A stretch of DNA of 29,328 nucleotides from an uncultured Nitrososphaera sp. (lineage in GTDB: Archaea; Thermoproteota; Nitrososphaeria; Nitrososphaerales; Nitrososphaeraceae). The notes below the pieces were generated by a model. It made no database searches. It had not been told where the DNA came from and was given only the letters and a program-made list of their open reading frames with translations. Positions 12,279-21,410 of the stretch are shown here, piece after piece. The stretch spans positions 1-29,328 of the forward strand of contig CAMLKF010000016.1 in the NCBI GenBank assembly GCA_946480575.1. The letters are read 5' to 3'. The translations under genes and the position numbers were made by a program. The first letter of the stretch is position 1, and every line of letters starts with the position of its first letter.

Positions 12279-13349
12279 TTATTTGTTTTTGAAGTATATC
12301 CTCTTCATTTCTTGCACCCATAGGTCTTTTTTCTCGTATATCCGCTTGTGTTTCCTCGGCTTGCAGACAGACAGCGCGTAGGAGCAGAGTAGCGGGAAAT
12401 ACACCGACGAATCGCCGTACACGATGACGTTGCCCCTGTGGGACGTCTTTATCTTGCCCCAACTCTTGCCTTCCTGCAGTGTTGCGCCAGAGAGGCCGCC
12501 AGTGTCAGGGCGTGCGTCTGTCATCTGGATTAGGTAGTCCTGCCCGCTCTCCTTTATCTTCAAGATTTGATACAGTGTCGGGCCGGTCTGCTGGAAAAAG
12601 TTCTTGGGGACCCCGCCTCCAAGCTCGAGGCCGCCGGAGCGCTCGCTCTTCCACAGTATCGCGGCTGACTCGGCAATGTCCAGTATGACGTTAGGGAAAA
12701 CGCCCTTGCCTTCGAGCAGCAGCGGCAGCATGTTGAGACCAATCGACGAGTCGCCTATCGCCGGCATGTAGACCGGCACTTTATGTTCAAAAGCCTTGAC
12801 AAGGAACGACTTGTCAGGGTTCTTGGCGTTCTCCTTGGCAGCCTTGCCGAGCGCGTAGGCAATGTCGGCGGTGGACGCGTTCTGCGGGATGATGCCTTTT
12901 GCGCGCTTGATTTCCTTTTGCACGATAATGTCCTGCGCCTGCAGCGTTCCCATCTCCTTTATGTAAACGTCGTAAATCCTCACTATCTGCCTTGAATACA
13001 GGACGTCGTCATCCACGTCAAAATGCCCCTGCCTGACGGGAAGGTCGTACGCAAAGTGCAGGTCGTGGTAGACGTTGGCTCCTGTTGCCACTATCCAGTC
13101 AATAAAGCCGGCCTCTATCATCGCAGAAAGGGTCCGGCCAAGGCCAATAGGCGTCATGGCGCCTGCAAGCGTCAGGCATACTGTCGAGTTGGTGTCTATC
13201 ATGTCCTGCAGGATCTCTGCCGCTTCGGCCAGCCGCCGGGCGTTGTAACCGGTCGAGCCGTAAAATTTTATCAAGTCTGGAACGGTCATGTTTGCCAAAA
13301 CTTTTGGTGGGTCGATCTTCCTGCCGGTGAATGTATGCCTGCTATCCAC
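12279..13349 (-). CDS. Deoxyhypusine synthase-like protein (divergent, SpeY/homospermidine-type)
   Basis: A 356-residue member of the deoxyhypusine synthase fold. It keeps the catalytic Lys in SWGKI (Lys299). However, GGGVPKNFF (244-252) has Asn where true synthases have His in GGG-x-x-KHH, and the DYLIQMTDARPDTGGLSGAT segment matches bacterial deoxyhypusine synthase-like enzymes. Known family chemistry is NAD-dependent transfer of the aminobutyl group of spermidine. The acceptor here may be a polyamine such as putrescine (giving homospermidine) and not aIF5A. The start is GTG at 13349, about 25 bases from an ATATTTTAAAAG TATA-like box. A canonical paralogue lies at 18.8 kb. Confidence 0.82.
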   Translation of the reverse strand: MDSRHTFTGRKIDPPKVLANMTVPDLIKFYGSTGYNARRLAEAAEILQDMIDTNSTVCLTLAGAMTPIGLGRTLSAMIEAGFIDWIVATGANVYHDLHFAYDLPVRQGHFDVDDDVLYSRQIVRIYDVYIKEMGTLQAQDIIVQKEIKRAKGIIPQNASTADIAYALGKAAKENAKNPDKSFLVKAFEHKVPVYMPAIGDSSIGLNMLPLLLEGKGVFPNVILDIAESAAILWKSERSGGLELGGGVPKNFFQQTGPTLYQILKIKESGQDYLIQMTDARPDTGGLSGATLQEGKSWGKIKTSHRGNVIVYGDSSVYFPLLCSYALSVCKPRKHKRIYEKKDLWVQEMKRIYFKNK

Positions 13350-14318: not shown

Positions 14319-14486
14319 TCAAGCGCTTTTTCGCAGTGTTTTCACTTTTTCGAAAAGCTCTTTCGGAAAAACATCTGCAAACTGCTCAAAGCTCTGCACG
14401 CCGTACTTTGCCCTGTATTCCTGCTTTCTCTTTTCATACTCTTCTGCAAGCTAGCGAAAGTCGGCTTCCTTGATCCTGACTTCCGT
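14319..14486 (-). pseudogene. Remnant of a small helical protein with an in-frame stop
   Basis: One minus-strand frame reads VRIKEADFR, a TAG stop (14451-14453), then LAEEYEKRKQEYRAKYGVQS and a further 24 residues ending in TLRKSA. The continuity of charge pattern and helix propensity across the stop suggests a disrupted gene. No start codon is present upstream of it. The family is not recognised. Confidence 0.35.
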
Positions 14487-14537
14487 ATTTAATATATGTT
14501 GTGACTCATATCTCTACTAAATGAGTTATAATAGTCT

Positions 14538-16067
14538 TTACGCGAGCTTGCCACCGACAGGGGGGACGTACCCCTTCAGGTCCTCTCCCCTGACGATGTC
14601 TTCTTCTGGCGGCACATAATCGACTACTCCATGCCTCTGCTCTCCTAGATACTTCTTTTGTGTGGCCAACGCGACACCAATAAAGATCGCAAACGATATT
14701 GGCGGTGGTATCATTGTGTCCAAACCTACGAGATCTGCAGGGATTGTGAAGAATAACGCCAGCCTTAGAATGGTTCCTGCTATGAGCGATGCGACGGCGG
14801 CAGGCATGTTGGCCTTCTTCCAGAACAGACCTAGTGTCAAAGGCGCGAGCGCGCCGGCAAACACAATGTCAAACGCGACTATCAGGTAGATGCCAGGCTG
14901 CGGCAGCATGTATGCCAGTATGAATGCAGCAACCATCATAGGTATTGTGAATATCCTGGTTGTCATCAGCAGCTTCTTGTCCTCCATGCCTGGTTTCTTT
15001 TGCAATCCGCGCAGGATATCGCGCTGTATAAGGTTCCTAGAGATGACGCTAGATATTGCAAGCAGGCCGCCATTTGCAGTAGACATCGATGCGCCGAGCA
15101 CACCCATCAAGAGCGCAGCCCCGACTGCAAATGGCATGTGGTTCAGTGCAAGCTCCGGATATGAGAGGAAGGGATCAGCAATGTTGGGCAGGAAGAATAA
15201 CGCCACAATCCCTAGCATGCTTGTTGGAATCACTGTGAGCAGCGTGAGGCCGCCGCCCATGGCAGCTCCCCTTTGCGCAGTCTTTGGATCTCTGGCCGCA
15301 AACACCCTTTCCATAAAGTCCAGCGCAACAATGTCTCCAAACCCGAGCGCCGCAATGGCTGCCCAGTTTACGTACGCGCCGGCGGCAGGGTCTGTCAGCC
15401 CGGACATATCAAGATAGCCCGGCGGTGCGGCTCCAATGATTGTGGCAAAGTCAACGCCGGCGTATCCACCGTAGAAGAACAGGAACGCTGCCCAGAATGC
15501 AATGATGGCTAGGTATATCTGGAAAATGTCGGTGTATGCCGAAGAGAACAGACCGCCTGCAAAGGTATAAACCAACACTACTGCGGCGCCAATGAGCACT
15601 GCCCAGAAAAAGTCAATCCCAAGAACAGCTTGCAGGATAAAGCCGGTCGCTGCAAAGTTGCCTGCAACCAGAATCGTAAAGCTAATCATCAGCAGAACGC
15701 TGGATATTGCCTCTGGACCCTTGCCAAACCTCCTGTAGTAAAAGTCCGGCAGGGTCAGCATCGACATCTTGTTTAATTTCTTTCCATAGAATGCCGCCGT
15801 CAGGAAAAGGCATGTTGAAAGCCCAATTGGAATCGCTGCTCCGGCCCAGAAACCGAATGAATAGACCAGCGACGCGTTGCCAAGTGACGAGTTGCCGTCG
15901 ACGGATTGCGCTGCGAGCATTGTCCCCACGAAGAAGAGAGGAAGGCTTTTTCCTGCGATCATGTATCTCTTGCTGCTCTTTCTGACAAGCCTAGAGGTCA
16001 GCGTGCCAACGACAATAGAAAGTACCAGAAAACCGATTATAGCTATGCTGTATTCTATCCCCGCCAT
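14538..16067 (-). CDS. SSS-family Na+/solute symporter
   Basis: A 509-residue membrane protein with about 13 hydrophobic segments and the sodium:solute symporter fold. Marks are the TM1-TM2 loop MIAGKSLPLFFVGTMLAAQ, the FAGGLFSSAYTDIFQ segment typical of TM5, and the Na+-site region LLMGVLGASMSTANGGLLA of TM8. Substrates in this family include urea, proline, acetate and other small solutes. Group I.1b ammonia oxidisers use SSS members for urea, but nothing nearby proves that here. The gene stands alone with a TATA box 25 bases before the ATG. Confidence 0.88.
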   Translation of the reverse strand: MAGIEYSIAIIGFLVLSIVVGTLTSRLVRKSSKRYMIAGKSLPLFFVGTMLAAQSVDGNSSLGNASLVYSFGFWAGAAIPIGLSTCLFLTAAFYGKKLNKMSMLTLPDFYYRRFGKGPEAISSVLLMISFTILVAGNFAATGFILQAVLGIDFFWAVLIGAAVVLVYTFAGGLFSSAYTDIFQIYLAIIAFWAAFLFFYGGYAGVDFATIIGAAPPGYLDMSGLTDPAAGAYVNWAAIAALGFGDIVALDFMERVFAARDPKTAQRGAAMGGGLTLLTVIPTSMLGIVALFFLPNIADPFLSYPELALNHMPFAVGAALLMGVLGASMSTANGGLLAISSVISRNLIQRDILRGLQKKPGMEDKKLLMTTRIFTIPMMVAAFILAYMLPQPGIYLIVAFDIVFAGALAPLTLGLFWKKANMPAAVASLIAGTILRLALFFTIPADLVGLDTMIPPPISFAIFIGVALATQKKYLGEQRHGVVDYVPPEEDIVRGEDLKGYVPPVGGKLA

Positions 16068-16564: not shown

Positions 16565-17311
16565 ATGAAGGTCAAGAACATCCCCGTCGAGCTGATCGAC
16601 GTTGCGAAGGAAAACGTGCGCAAGGACCAGGATTTTGGCAAGGACATCAGCGACAGGCTGATGAAGGAACATTTATCAAAATTTGATCTGCTCCAGCCGG
16701 TGGTTGTTCGATTTGACGATGAAAGCAGGCGCTACAAGCTGCTGATCGGCCGCAGGAGGTTCTTTGCTCTGAACGCCAAGGGGGTCAAGGAAGTGCCAGC
16801 AGTCATCACCGAGCTTGAAGGTGCCGAAGCGGAGGCCGCGTCGCTCTTTGAAAACCTGATCCGCAAGGACCTGTCGCCTCTAGAAAAGGCACACATGGTG
16901 AAAAAGCTTGTCGACTCGACAAAAGGCGGGATAACCGGCGCGTCTGCAAAGTACGGCCTGCCAAAGAGCACGATAAGCGAATGGCTCAGCATACTGACAC
17001 TTCCGCAGCCGCTGCAGGATCAGATAGAGGGTGGCAAGATCACCTCTTATGAAGCTATCAGGATCGCAAGGAGGCCCGACATACACAGTAGGCTGGTGGA
17101 AGCAGCCGCGCAGTCTAGGCTGCAGGAGGAGATGATCTCGGCAGGAGTCAAGCGCGGAGCGCCAAAGGGGCTCCTGACCGTGCGCCTTGTGTTTGACCCG
17201 CGCAAGAAACCAGACAGAAAGATCTGGGAACGCCTCAATGAAAAAGCAAGCCAGAGCGGCCTTGAGGTCACCGACTATGTCAGGAACATCGTTGCAAAGC
17301 ACATGCAGTAA
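16565..17311 (+). CDS. ParB/RepB/Spo0J-like DNA-binding protein (orphan)
   Basis: A 248-residue protein. The N-terminal ParB domain (about 1-95) includes YKLLIGRRRFFALNAKG, the counterpart of the GERR motif, and LFENLIRKDLSPLEKAHMV, matching the ENLxRxxLxPxExA box. A helix-turn-helix region follows (GITGASAKYGLPKSTISEWL, about 120-140). The C-terminus (LTVRLVFDPRKKPDRKIWER onward) replaces the usual dimerisation domain. Bacterial ParB proteins bind CTP and slide from parS; no parA gene is adjacent here, so a role in chromosome organisation or transcription is open. Preceded by an inverted repeat and a palindromic promoter, which suggests autoregulation. Confidence 0.85.
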   Translation: MKVKNIPVELIDVAKENVRKDQDFGKDISDRLMKEHLSKFDLLQPVVVRFDDESRRYKLLIGRRRFFALNAKGVKEVPAVITELEGAEAEAASLFENLIRKDLSPLEKAHMVKKLVDSTKGGITGASAKYGLPKSTISEWLSILTLPQPLQDQIEGGKITSYEAIRIARRPDIHSRLVEAAAQSRLQEEMISAGVKRGAPKGLLTVRLVFDPRKKPDRKIWERLNEKASQSGLEVTDYVRNIVAKHMQ

Positions 17312-18837: not shown

Positions 18838-19800
18838 ATGGCCGGCAGAGTGAAAAAGGGCAGGGATCTTTTGCACAGCTCGGTTAAGGATTATGCAATC
18901 AAACAGAATGACGTGAATTCGATATTTTCAAACATGGCAAATTCCGGCGGCTTTGAGTCGCGGAACCTTGCAGATGGTGTTGACATTTTGCGCAGGATGC
19001 TGGATGACAAGAGCTGCACCAAGTTCATGTCGTTTGTAGGGGCATTGATGTCGACAGGCGCAAGGGGCATCATACGCGACATGATAAAAAACAGGATGTG
19101 CGACGTCATAATCACCACTTGCGGCGCGCTGGACCACGACATCGCAAGGGCCTATGACAAGTATTACGCCGGCGACTTTCGCATGGACGACAGCATGCTG
19201 CTGAACAAGAACATCCACCGGCTTGGAAATGTGCTTGTTCCGATGGACAACTATGGCCCGCTCATCGAGGAAAAGATGCAAAAGCGCCTGAGTGCAATGT
19301 ACAAGGATGGCAGGCGCAGCGTTGCCACGTACGAGATAACCGATTATATCGGCAGCACACTTGACAGGTCATCCTTCCTGTACTGGGCGCACAGGAACAA
19401 GATCCCAGTCATTGTGCCGGGCATAGTGGACGGCGCGGTCGGAAGCCAAGTGTGGTTCTTTTACCAGCAGCACAAGGACTTTAAAGTAGACATTTTGAAG
19501 GACGAAAGCAGGTTATCTGACATTGTCTTTGAAGCTAAAAAGGCAGGCGCGTTCATGATAGGAGGCGGCATTTCAAAGCACCACACGCTCTGGTGGAACC
19601 AGTTTAGGGGCGGGCTTGACTACGCGGTCTATATCACCACGGCGCCGGAATGGGACGGGAGCCTGAGCGGCGCGCTGGTTGCTGAAGCTATATCGTGGGG
19701 CAAGGTGACCACAAAGGCCCGCCAGACTACGATACACGGCGAAGCGACCACACTTTTGCCCTTTATCTACGCCGCGCTTCTTGCAGGAAGGAAAGCGTAG
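18838..19800 (+). CDS. dys: Deoxyhypusine synthase
   Basis: A 320-residue NAD-dependent enzyme that transfers the aminobutyl group of spermidine to a lysine of translation factor aIF5A, the first step of hypusine formation. Present are the NAD and spermidine site IVPGIVDGAVGSQ, GGGISKHH (242-249) with the catalytic His, DYAVYITTAPEWDGSLSGAL, and the Schiff-base Lys289 in AISWGKV. Length and motifs fit archaeal enzymes. The ureohydrolase that can supply putrescine follows 114 bases downstream. aIF5A is not in the window. This is the canonical copy, unlike the paralogue at 12.3-13.3 kb. Confidence 0.92.
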   Translation: MAGRVKKGRDLLHSSVKDYAIKQNDVNSIFSNMANSGGFESRNLADGVDILRRMLDDKSCTKFMSFVGALMSTGARGIIRDMIKNRMCDVIITTCGALDHDIARAYDKYYAGDFRMDDSMLLNKNIHRLGNVLVPMDNYGPLIEEKMQKRLSAMYKDGRRSVATYEITDYIGSTLDRSSFLYWAHRNKIPVIVPGIVDGAVGSQVWFFYQQHKDFKVDILKDESRLSDIVFEAKKAGAFMIGGGISKHHTLWWNQFRGGLDYAVYITTAPEWDGSLSGALVAEAISWGKVTTKARQTTIHGEATTLLPFIYAALLAGRKA

Positions 19801-19914: not shown

Positions 19915-21030
19915 ATGGGGATGGAATTTTACGGAGATTCATACAAGGGAAACGACGAGCCAATCTTTGTAGGCATACCGACATTTCTGAAGCTGCCATG
20001 GCTGCGAAGCCAAGCAGAGCTCAACAAAGTCAAGCCGGACGTGGCGATAATAGGCGAGCCTTTTGACTTTGGAACTACCATTCGCCCCGGGGCAAGGTAC
20101 GGCCCAAGGGCAATACGGGCGGCTTCAACCGTGCCATCCCCGCCTTATGAACATTTCAATATCGAGACAGGTGTTGACCCTTTTGGGGTGTTTCGCACGG
20201 CCGACTATGGCGATGTTGTTGTTTCACCCGGCGACGTGGTGGAGTCGCACAGGAGGATGACTGACAAGGTAAAAGAGGTTCTTGACATTGATGGCATCCC
20301 TGTGATGCTTGGAGGCGATCACTCTATCACGTTTGCAAACGTCAGGGCGTTTGCCAAGAAGTACAAGAACATTGGCATGATCCACATCGACACCCACGCA
20401 GACTGCGCACCGCAGGGCCTCTGTGGCTTCAAGTATGACCACGGCGCGCACATCAGGAGGATAATGGAGCTTGGCTGCCTCAAGGGCAAGAACTACACCC
20501 TCATTGGCCCGCGGGGCTACTGGCCGGGACCAGACCTCTACAAGTGGATGGCCGACCAGGACTTCCAGTGGTTCACGATGCTTGATGTTGAAGAGCTTGG
20601 CATAGACCAGATAGCCAAGGAGGCTGCCGATAGGGCTAATGACAACGTTGACGGCGTATACATCAGCTGGGACATCGACACGTTTGACCCTGCTTATGCG
20701 CCGGGGACGGGCGAGCCGGAGCCAAACGGTCTGACGTCGAGGGAAGGCATGAGGCTCATGCGATTGCTCTCGACCTCGTTTGACCCAGACAAGTTTGCCT
20801 TTGACCTTGTAGAAGTGGCGCCAAACTATGACGTGAGCGACGTCAACTCGTATAATGGCGGCATTACGTCTGGTCTCGCAAACAGGCTGATAGTGGAGCT
20901 ACTGGCAGGGCTTTCGCTCACAAAGAAGGGGCAGATGGAGGGCAAGCCAGTGAGGCCGAGGCAATACCGCGGTAAGGGACACACGTACAGCTTTGGCGGA
21001 CGCAAGGCAAAGGTGCCTGGGCGCAAATGA
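19915..21030 (+). CDS. speB: Agmatinase-family ureohydrolase
   Basis: A 371-residue arginase-fold enzyme. All binuclear metal ligands are present: His136 (GGDHS), Asp159, His161 and Asp163 (HIDTHADC), Asp253 and Asp255 (SWDIDTFDP). The ARYGPRAIR segment and APGTGEPEPNGL loop are typical of agmatinases. It would split agmatine to putrescine and urea. The protein is 50-70 residues longer than a classical agmatinase, with an N-terminal extension and a basic C-terminal tail, as also seen in ureohydrolases acting on other guanidino compounds, so the substrate is not certain. The stop overlaps the next gene's start (ATGA), coupling it to a urease-gamma-like protein; deoxyhypusine synthase lies upstream. 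Confidence 0.88.
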   Translation: MGMEFYGDSYKGNDEPIFVGIPTFLKLPWLRSQAELNKVKPDVAIIGEPFDFGTTIRPGARYGPRAIRAASTVPSPPYEHFNIETGVDPFGVFRTADYGDVVVSPGDVVESHRRMTDKVKEVLDIDGIPVMLGGDHSITFANVRAFAKKYKNIGMIHIDTHADCAPQGLCGFKYDHGAHIRRIMELGCLKGKNYTLIGPRGYWPGPDLYKWMADQDFQWFTMLDVEELGIDQIAKEAADRANDNVDGVYISWDIDTFDPAYAPGTGEPEPNGLTSREGMRLMRLLSTSFDPDKFAFDLVEVAPNYDVSDVNSYNGGITSGLANRLIVELLAGLSLTKKGQMEGKPVRPRQYRGKGHTYSFGGRKAKVPGRK

Positions 21031-21410
21031 TCCACGTCAAGGCGACAATCTGGGGCGAGCCTGACGTGCTCCCCTTTACGCGGATATTTGATTATGGCAG
21101 CGCTGATGAAGAAATTTTCTTTAGCTCTGCCGCCATGATACAGGAAAAGCTTGCCCGCAAGATGAAGATAAACGCCAACGAAGCGCTAGTAACATACTGC
21201 GTGTGTGTCGTAAAATCAATTCGCGCCGGCAGGCCCGAGAGCGACATTCAAGAAGACGCTCAGGAAATCCTATCTGCCGACAAGGTGATGGTAGGCGTCC
21301 CGGAGACCCTGCGCGTAATCACATTTGAGGCAAAGATAGACAGCATGCCGGCCATAAAGATAACATTCAAGGAGCCGATACCAACAAGCAGCTACATGCT
21401 GGCAGGCTGA
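21027..21410 (+). CDS. Orphan urease gamma-subunit-like protein
   Basis: A 127-residue protein whose residues about 40-120 align by eye, with nearly the same spacing, to urease gamma (UreA). LARKMKINANEAL corresponds to LARGLKLNYPES, then RAGRP to RDGKS, VMVGVPETL to VMEGVPEMI, and ITFEAKID to the VEATF strand, ending at KEPI like HNPI. The first 38 residues (MIHVKATIWGEPDVLPFTRI onward) are not from UreA. No beta or alpha urease subunit lies in the window. Its ATG overlaps the TGA of the ureohydrolase, so the two are co-translated. It could be a regulatory or structural partner of that enzyme. Homology is inferred from motif reading only. Confidence 0.65.
   Translation: MIHVKATIWGEPDVLPFTRIFDYGSADEEIFFSSAAMIQEKLARKMKINANEALVTYCVCVVKSIRAGRPESDIQEDAQEILSADKVMVGVPETLRVITFEAKIDSMPAIKITFKEPIPTSSYMLAG

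Follow-up and report, generated by a model that had tools for sequence, protein, structure and literature searches.

Several described systems resemble in part the gene pair analysed here, in which a ureohydrolase of the arginase/agmatinase family (hereafter AgmB) is followed by a protein similar to the gamma subunit of urease (UreA). The guanidinase GdmH and the Nitrospira inopinata guanidinase (7ESR, 9FEK) share with AgmB the ureohydrolase family, the six metal ligands and the equivalents of T105, H222 and E344, but not W313 of 9FEK. To our knowledge, no guanidinase has a UreA-like partner. The metformin hydrolase operon, as described in PMC11399263, likewise encodes a ureohydrolase together with a second protein and a nickel transporter, near urea genes in one strain; its partner protein is a ureohydrolase-family subunit without a metal site, accompanied by HypA/HypB, whereas the partner of AgmB is a urease-gamma paralogue. 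Agmatinase (SpeB), the database name for AgmB, shares PF00491 with it, but AgmB stays below the NCBIfam agmatinase cut-offs, is linked to urease and is mostly additional to other PF00491 genes. Most ammonia-oxidising archaea are reported to have 2-3 speB copies (PMC10753782), and an SSS transporter clustered with agmatinase (SpeB) has been described in Nitrososphaera NS-delta MAGs, with a suggested role in urea concentration (PMC11131427). Judged by its description, this cluster is probably the same symporter-ureohydrolase neighbourhood as ours; the description mentions no UreA-like gene, and the main text of that paper does not contain the word "nickel".

The UreA-like protein resembles UreA (PF00547) in exceeding the Pfam cut-off, in its predicted helical core and in a predicted C-terminal hairpin with a PI end. 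It differs from UreA in an extra N-terminal hairpin, in the few canonical positions that it keeps, in falling below the NCBIfam cut-offs and in its neighbour, a ureohydrolase, with no ureB or ureC in the window, in genomes that usually also encode a true ureA. Our literature search returned no description of a UreA paralogue associated with a ureohydrolase; the queries in which UreA was matched as "urea" are weak tests of this.

The AgmB and UreA-like genes of the window

The whole stretch of DNA analysed, called the window, comprises 29,328 nucleotides from an uncultured Nitrososphaera sp. and contains the following features:

14538 to 16067, reverse strand: sodium:solute symporter (PF00474), 509 aa, whose presence tracks AgmB
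16565 to 17311, forward strand: ParB-like DNA-binding protein between symporter and AgmB, found in only part of the loci
18838 to 19800, forward strand: deoxyhypusine synthase, directly upstream of AgmB
19915 to 21030, forward strand: ureohydrolase AgmB, arginase/agmatinase family (PF00491), 371 aa, with six metal ligands
21027 to 21030, forward strand: ATGA overlap, with the UreA-like start inside the ureohydrolase stop
21027 to 21410, forward strand: UreA-like protein, 127 aa, with a urease-gamma domain at residues 31-117 and an N-terminal beta hairpin at about residues 1-23

An initial annotation, made from the letters of the window, had described the last ORF as urease gamma-like, with a start codon that overlaps the ureohydrolase stop, and both points were borne out. 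The ORF list gives an ATG start and a length of 127 aa, and the ATG (21027-21029) and the ureohydrolase TGA (21028-21030) together form the 4-nt overlap. In Pfam, residues 31-117 aligned to positions 13-98 of the PF00547 profile with an E value of 3.2e-10 and 40.7 bits, versus a gathering cut-off of 23.9. Four NCBIfam urease models also matched, all of them under their cut-offs by a wide margin, the best being urease subunit gamma (40.6 bits versus 123), while TIGR00193 gave 34.5 bits versus 82.3. The top PDB match was 1a5k_A, a urease gamma subunit (E 5.7e-8). A protein search returned 181 relatives at E 0.1 or better, the best 120 of which are 55-98% identical; among the relatives listed, any name attached was urease gamma and any organism stated was Nitrososphaera. 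Pfam, the PDB match and these relatives exclude a chance similarity to UreA. A wider profile search gathered 1484 proteins (the best 120 listed), a total that does not separate UreA-like from true UreA sequences, and plasmid records yielded nine weak matches (28-36% identity, each over less than 80% of the query), five annotated as urease subunits and four without annotation.

The AlphaFold2 model of the protein, built from a 26-row alignment (mean pLDDT 89.5, pTM 0.83), predicts three long helices (25-43, 50-66 and 71-81), a C-terminal hairpin (97-104/110-115) and an N-terminal hairpin (2-9/17-23), the last of which is absent from the true UreA of these archaea.

AgmB scored 266.5 bits against PF00491 in Pfam, which places it in the arginase/agmatinase superfamily, and all six metal ligands are kept (H136, D159, H161, D163, D253 and D255). 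Its closest solved structures are a guanidinobutyrase (181 bits) and then the guanidinases 7ESR (166.5) and 9FEK (165). A plain agmatinase was rejected as its identity because AgmB misses the NCBIfam cut-offs (155.5 versus 174.3 bits for TIGR01230, 199.7 versus 302 for a second model). Four guanidinase positions, T105, H222, W313 and E344, are described for 9FEK (PMC11410670); the first two and the last are kept in AgmB as T55, H176 and E300, but W313 is replaced by a glutamate, E267, for which reason a plain guanidinase was rejected as well. Speculatively, a glutamate in place of that tryptophan might suit a guanidino compound that is longer and positively charged. The same paper, a 2024 survey, reports no guanidine-degradation genes in ammonia-oxidising archaea (PMC11410670), and therefore the substrate of AgmB is probably another guanidino compound. 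A PF00491 search of eight genomes found two to four such genes in seven and one in G117; besides AgmB, this leaves two or three other genes in six genomes, one in G138 and none in G117. As a separate observation, an otherwise 97% identical AgmB copy (L003:7364-8476) contains an in-frame TAG, with 226 codons to the stop, which may be either an error or a recent loss.

Distribution, pairing and loss of the UreA-like gene

The distribution of both proteins was determined in 330 genomes drawn evenly from the class, a sample without completeness figures, by calling the UreA-like protein at E 1e-15 or better and AgmB at E 1e-100 or better. The UreA-like protein is present in 66 genomes and AgmB in 76, with both in 64. 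A neighbourhood survey, proposed in the initial annotation, finds the UreA-like gene directly behind AgmB in 64 of 66 genomes. These 64 genomes offered 66 UreA-like places for comparison, and AgmB lies upstream on the same strand in every one of them; measured from the last matched codon of AgmB, the gap is within 70 nt in 64 of the 66 (37 of these within 8 nt), the longest being 72 nt in G227 and 188 nt in G117. This spacing count leaves out G113, a fragment without an AgmB hit, and G294, where AgmB is cut by the contig end but still adjoins the UreA-like gene. A scan of genome contigs provided 21 loci, 20 of them titled as Nitrososphaera or Nitrosopumilus ammonia-oxidising archaea and one as "archaeon", and AgmB is directly upstream on the same strand in all except L021. 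The UreA-like proteins are a conserved family, and the suggestion that a re-purposed UreA domain is tied to the ureohydrolase gains support from the distribution, from the pairing and from the residue loss described below. Two members, L093 and L102, are strongly diverged (31-35% identity) and have an N-terminal part that no longer matches the window protein; they still stand directly behind AgmB.

The initial annotation had also deduced a stoichiometric partner of the ureohydrolase, which was too strong a reading, as 12 of the 76 AgmB genomes have no UreA-like hit and six of the 76 lack the gene between intact flanks (G110, G158, G187, G192, G245 and G263). Behind AgmB, five of these six contain no ORF of 40 codons or more, and G192 contains four ORFs, none matching the UreA-like profile. 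Two short remnants in two frames are left in G149, the contig ends at or inside AgmB in G189, G241, G251 and G259, and AgmB itself is incomplete in G229. Moreover, one stop lies inside the UreA-like match of G213, the single such case among 68 places, and in L001, a close relative, a stop after 69 codons interrupts the UreA-like frame (L001:9662-10042), which may reflect either an error or a recent loss. Because of these absences, remnants and interrupted frames, we regard the UreA-like protein as common but dispensable. In L021 and L098, which belong to the same contig, AgmB is missing and the last third of the UreA-like gene is left in L021; the NicO-like gene and the urease set are both still there, with ureD broken into three pieces, perhaps by sequencing errors.

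Urease genes and other neighbours

Taking PF00547 matches of 83 bits or more as true ureA, we found this gene in 118 of the 330 genomes. It is present in 59/66 genomes with the UreA-like protein versus 59/264 of the others, and in 70/76 AgmB genomes versus 48/254 of the others. Because related genomes within the sample are not independent, Fisher p-values for the co-occurrence of urease, and of the symporter discussed below, overstate certainty. The UreA-like gene and the true ureA share a contig in 43 of the 59 genomes, within 20 kb of each other in 39 of these 43, and lie on different contigs in the other 16; in G138, G085, G105 and G098, ureA is 93 kb to 2.2 Mb away by contig coordinates and the UreA-like gene is still behind AgmB. 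In relatives, the separate true ureA stands beside ureB. The seven UreA-like genomes in which true ureA was not found are, judged by contig numbers, multi-contig drafts; UreD was found in two of them, the urease-alpha N-terminal domain in none of the seven, and in one of them, G177, a contig end holds about two thirds of ureC.

No urease gene turned up in the window when UreA-G of locus L011 served as tblastn queries (E 1e-8), in agreement with the earlier statement that urease beta and alpha genes are missing there, and the window also has no NicO gene. The description of the UreA-like gene as an orphan therefore stands for the window and fails for its relatives, where urease genes lie near the pair in 11 of the 21 loci (L002, L003, L004, L006, L009, L010, L011, L012, L016, L018 and L021), several with a complete ureABC-DEFG set; the loci were cut at 10 kb or at contig ends, and weak partial ureC matches in L005 (41-45%) were not counted. 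These nearby genes and the co-occurrence with true ureA favour the link to urease that had been proposed at the outset. In the genome nearest to the window by AgmB (G259, 99%), other contigs carry the symporter, ureA and a NicO-like gene. In G137 (L096) and also in G141, two ureA copies on the same contig flank the AgmB/UreA-like pair on either side.

Of the 330 genomes, 72 encode close relatives of the SSF symporter, and AgmB is present in 69 of these 72; the symporter occurs without AgmB in three genomes and AgmB without the symporter in seven. Within the 118 urease-positive genomes, 65 of 68 symporter carriers have AgmB and the symporter occurs in only 3 of the 48 genomes without AgmB. Because the symporter tracks AgmB and is rare in urease-positive genomes lacking it, this distribution is the best hint that the symporter brings in the substrate of AgmB and not urea. 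In relatives, the symporter is accompanied by a protein of about 170-190 aa that has no Pfam match; in the window it is matched only by a 51-residue piece (14337-14489, reverse strand), and it has possibly decayed in this genome. Also on the reverse strand, 12279-13349 encodes a second deoxyhypusine-synthase relative that passes the NCBIfam model "homospermidine biosynthesis protein" (476.6 versus 450 bits).

In 16 of 30 loci the gene after the UreA-like one encodes a NicO-like permease, a family that tracks AgmB poorly (39 of the 76 AgmB genomes plus 32 others). Two of these proteins scanned against PF03824 scored 21.3 and 21.4 bits, under the cut-off of 27.7; all eight aligned NicO-like proteins carry the HxxxxDH signature, which we take to be typical of NiCoT/NicO nickel permeases.

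Haloarchaeal AgmB homologues (three of five plasmid hits viewed) are 51-52.5% identical to AgmB. In Natronorubrum bangense the gene is beside ureBCAGDEF, in Halalkalicoccus jeotgali it is beside an SSF symporter, and in Haloarcula marismortui it is again beside an SSF symporter, with chaperonin and formamidase genes further off. No ORF of 70-260 residues in the three regions matched the UreA-like profile better than that of true UreA. Since these regions have the pairing without a UreA-like gene, the association of symporter, ureohydrolase and urease appears to predate the UreA-like protein.

Origin and possible role of the UreA-like protein

To describe what separates the family from UreA, we compared 40 UreA-like with 37 true UreA proteins of these archaea, collapsing identical rows and leaving out the divergent or intermediate L055, L090, L092, L093, L100 and L102, shorter fragments and haloarchaeal UreA. 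At 51 positions, 90% or more of the true UreA proteins agree; only eight of these (N49, E52, R66, L82, V87, V91, P117 and I118) show that residue in 85% or more of the UreA-like proteins. The remaining 43, to which most of the C-terminal hairpin belongs, have lost this shared conservation; at some of them the commonest residue is still the same in both groups, at a lower frequency. Residues that are fixed in the UreA-like group alone include G10, D13, P16, E28 and F100, and 15 positions are invariant across 26 members. A replacement UreA working inside urease is unlikely, since canonical residues have been lost and a true ureA is usually there as well.

An intermediate form is present in G117 (L090), where AgmB, UreA-like, NicO-like, ureA, B, C, E, F, G and D genes follow each other on one strand. 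Its UreA-like protein has 110 aa, lacks the N-terminal GEPD stretch and scores 61 bits against the UreA-like profile and 56 against that of true UreA. In a tree of 60 rows, L055, from the same genome, sits between the two groups: one branch (98/97) splits L055 plus 39 other UreA-like rows from 20 UreA rows, and another (100/99) splits L055 plus the UreA rows from the 39 UreA-like rows, in an unrooted tree with several long branches and a bootstrap that had not settled. By a simple counting method applied to 12 hand-picked pairs, some with dS above 1, dN/dS was 0.12-0.39 for the UreA-like gene and 0-0.04 for AgmB, which puts the UreA-like values roughly 4- to 50-fold higher; one pair shows no amino-acid difference in AgmB, and in the two L003 pairs the AgmB comparison covers 226 codons owing to the in-frame stop of that copy. 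These values indicate that the UreA-like gene is under purifying selection but far less constrained than AgmB.

Taken together, we consider it somewhat better than an even bet that, in ammonia-oxidising archaea, a UreA paralogue left urease and now serves a catabolic ureohydrolase as its accessory protein. The gene arrangement suggests a putative side branch that feeds urea, and so ammonia, to many of these organisms. To judge from co-occurrence, the Na+-coupled SSF symporter would import a guanidino compound, which AgmB, by the chemistry of its family, would cleave to give urea plus an amine; urease, whose genes are often no more than 20 kb away, would then turn urea into ammonia for oxidation and assimilation. 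The UreA-like protein, presumably made by coupled translation, would bind AgmB and aid its folding, metal loading or regulation. Its gene is probably a duplicate of ureA that originated within an ancestral ureohydrolase-ureA'-NicO-ureABCEFGD operon, a gene order kept in L090; the N-terminal hairpin would have been gained, and most positions conserved in true UreA freed, after that event. Counting against the accessory role are the AgmB-only genomes, the interrupted frames and the haloarchaeal regions without a UreA-like gene, and the large difference in rate between the two proteins would be unusual for two subunits of a tight complex. The seven UreA-like genomes without a true ureA hit, the window itself with neither urease nor NicO genes, and the ten genomes in which symporter and AgmB do not occur together likewise speak against the reading.

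Among more specific proposals, the UreA-like protein could be a nickel-loading adaptor through which UreDEFG dock on a Ni-dependent AgmB and insert the metal, HypA being missing; we hold this to be unlikely. Known nickel ureohydrolases use nickel chaperones: the Ni-dependent metformin and dimethylguanidine hydrolases are reported to depend on HypA/HypB, the guanidine hydrolase GdmH to be activated by nickel chaperones, and the metformin operon to carry a HupE nickel transporter as well (PMC11399263). Together with the detection of HypA at cut-off in 0 of 12 hand-picked genomes, this makes a metal-loading reading attractive, and the NicO-like permease downstream of the UreA-like gene and the nesting of the pair largely within urease-positive genomes are in line with it. 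On the other hand, Mn is described as the commoner metal of the ureohydrolase family (PMC11399263), the NicO-like family tracks AgmB poorly and its two scanned members are under the Pfam cut-off, G110 has UreEFGD and AgmB without the UreA-like protein, partial HypA-like matches below cut-off occur in 2 of the 12 genomes, and we found no evidence that UreDFG recognise UreA. The fuller version, in which an exapted adaptor lets UreDEFG mature a Ni ureohydrolase and so gives HypA-lacking ammonia oxidisers a guanidino-to-urea-to-ammonia pathway, is a shade more doubtful. A scaffold that tethers AgmB to urease, so that urea passes between them, perhaps through a UreA-like face still in contact with UreC or UreB, would suit the descent from UreA and the co-occurrence with urease, but the lost conservation at 43 of 51 true-UreA positions, with most of the C-terminal hairpin among them, and the four genomes with a distant ureA make it rather improbable.

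A role of AgmB in removing urea from agmatine-modified aIF5A, made by the nearby deoxyhypusine synthase, is suggested by the adjacency of the two genes in the window and by the 10 of 21 loci, Nitrosarchaeum, Nitrosotenuis and Nitrosopumilus among them, that have a deoxyhypusine synthase no more than 10 kb from the pair, with the genes in either order. The modification of aIF5A should, however, be general, whereas AgmB is absent from 254 of the 330 genomes at E 1e-100 and tracks urease, two or three PF00491 genes besides AgmB occur in six of the eight genomes searched, and direct adjacency is limited to the window, L001-L004, L068, L089 and L099. Such a role is thus very improbable; because AgmB tracks urease, we read the proximity as loose synteny, and deoxyhypusine synthase is probably not part of the module. 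We give least credence of all to a leftover second ureA copy, drifting without function and carried along by its neighbour: its fast evolution and its loss, interruption or decay in some genomes would fit, but dN/dS is below 0.4 in 12 of 12 pairs, the 15 invariant positions persist, a stop falls inside the match in one of 68 places and the spacing is short in 64 of 66.

If the accessory-protein reading is true, a sizeable share of ammonia-oxidising archaea possess an overlooked way of using organic nitrogen, equipped with a dedicated importer and hydrolase, and the UreA-like protein is a case of a urease subunit used outside urease. There is also a consequence for annotation, in that UreA-like proteins carrying a source name are called urease gamma among the matches listed. 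Counts that take "at least one urease subunit" as urease, as described in PMC12625717, could for this reason overstate urease carriers, though only slightly because 59 of the 66 UreA-like carriers have a true ureA anyway.

Finally, as an observation in its own right, a thermosome/cpn60 chaperonin gene recurs near the module in L002, L003, L011, L112 and others, as well as in Haloarcula marismortui.
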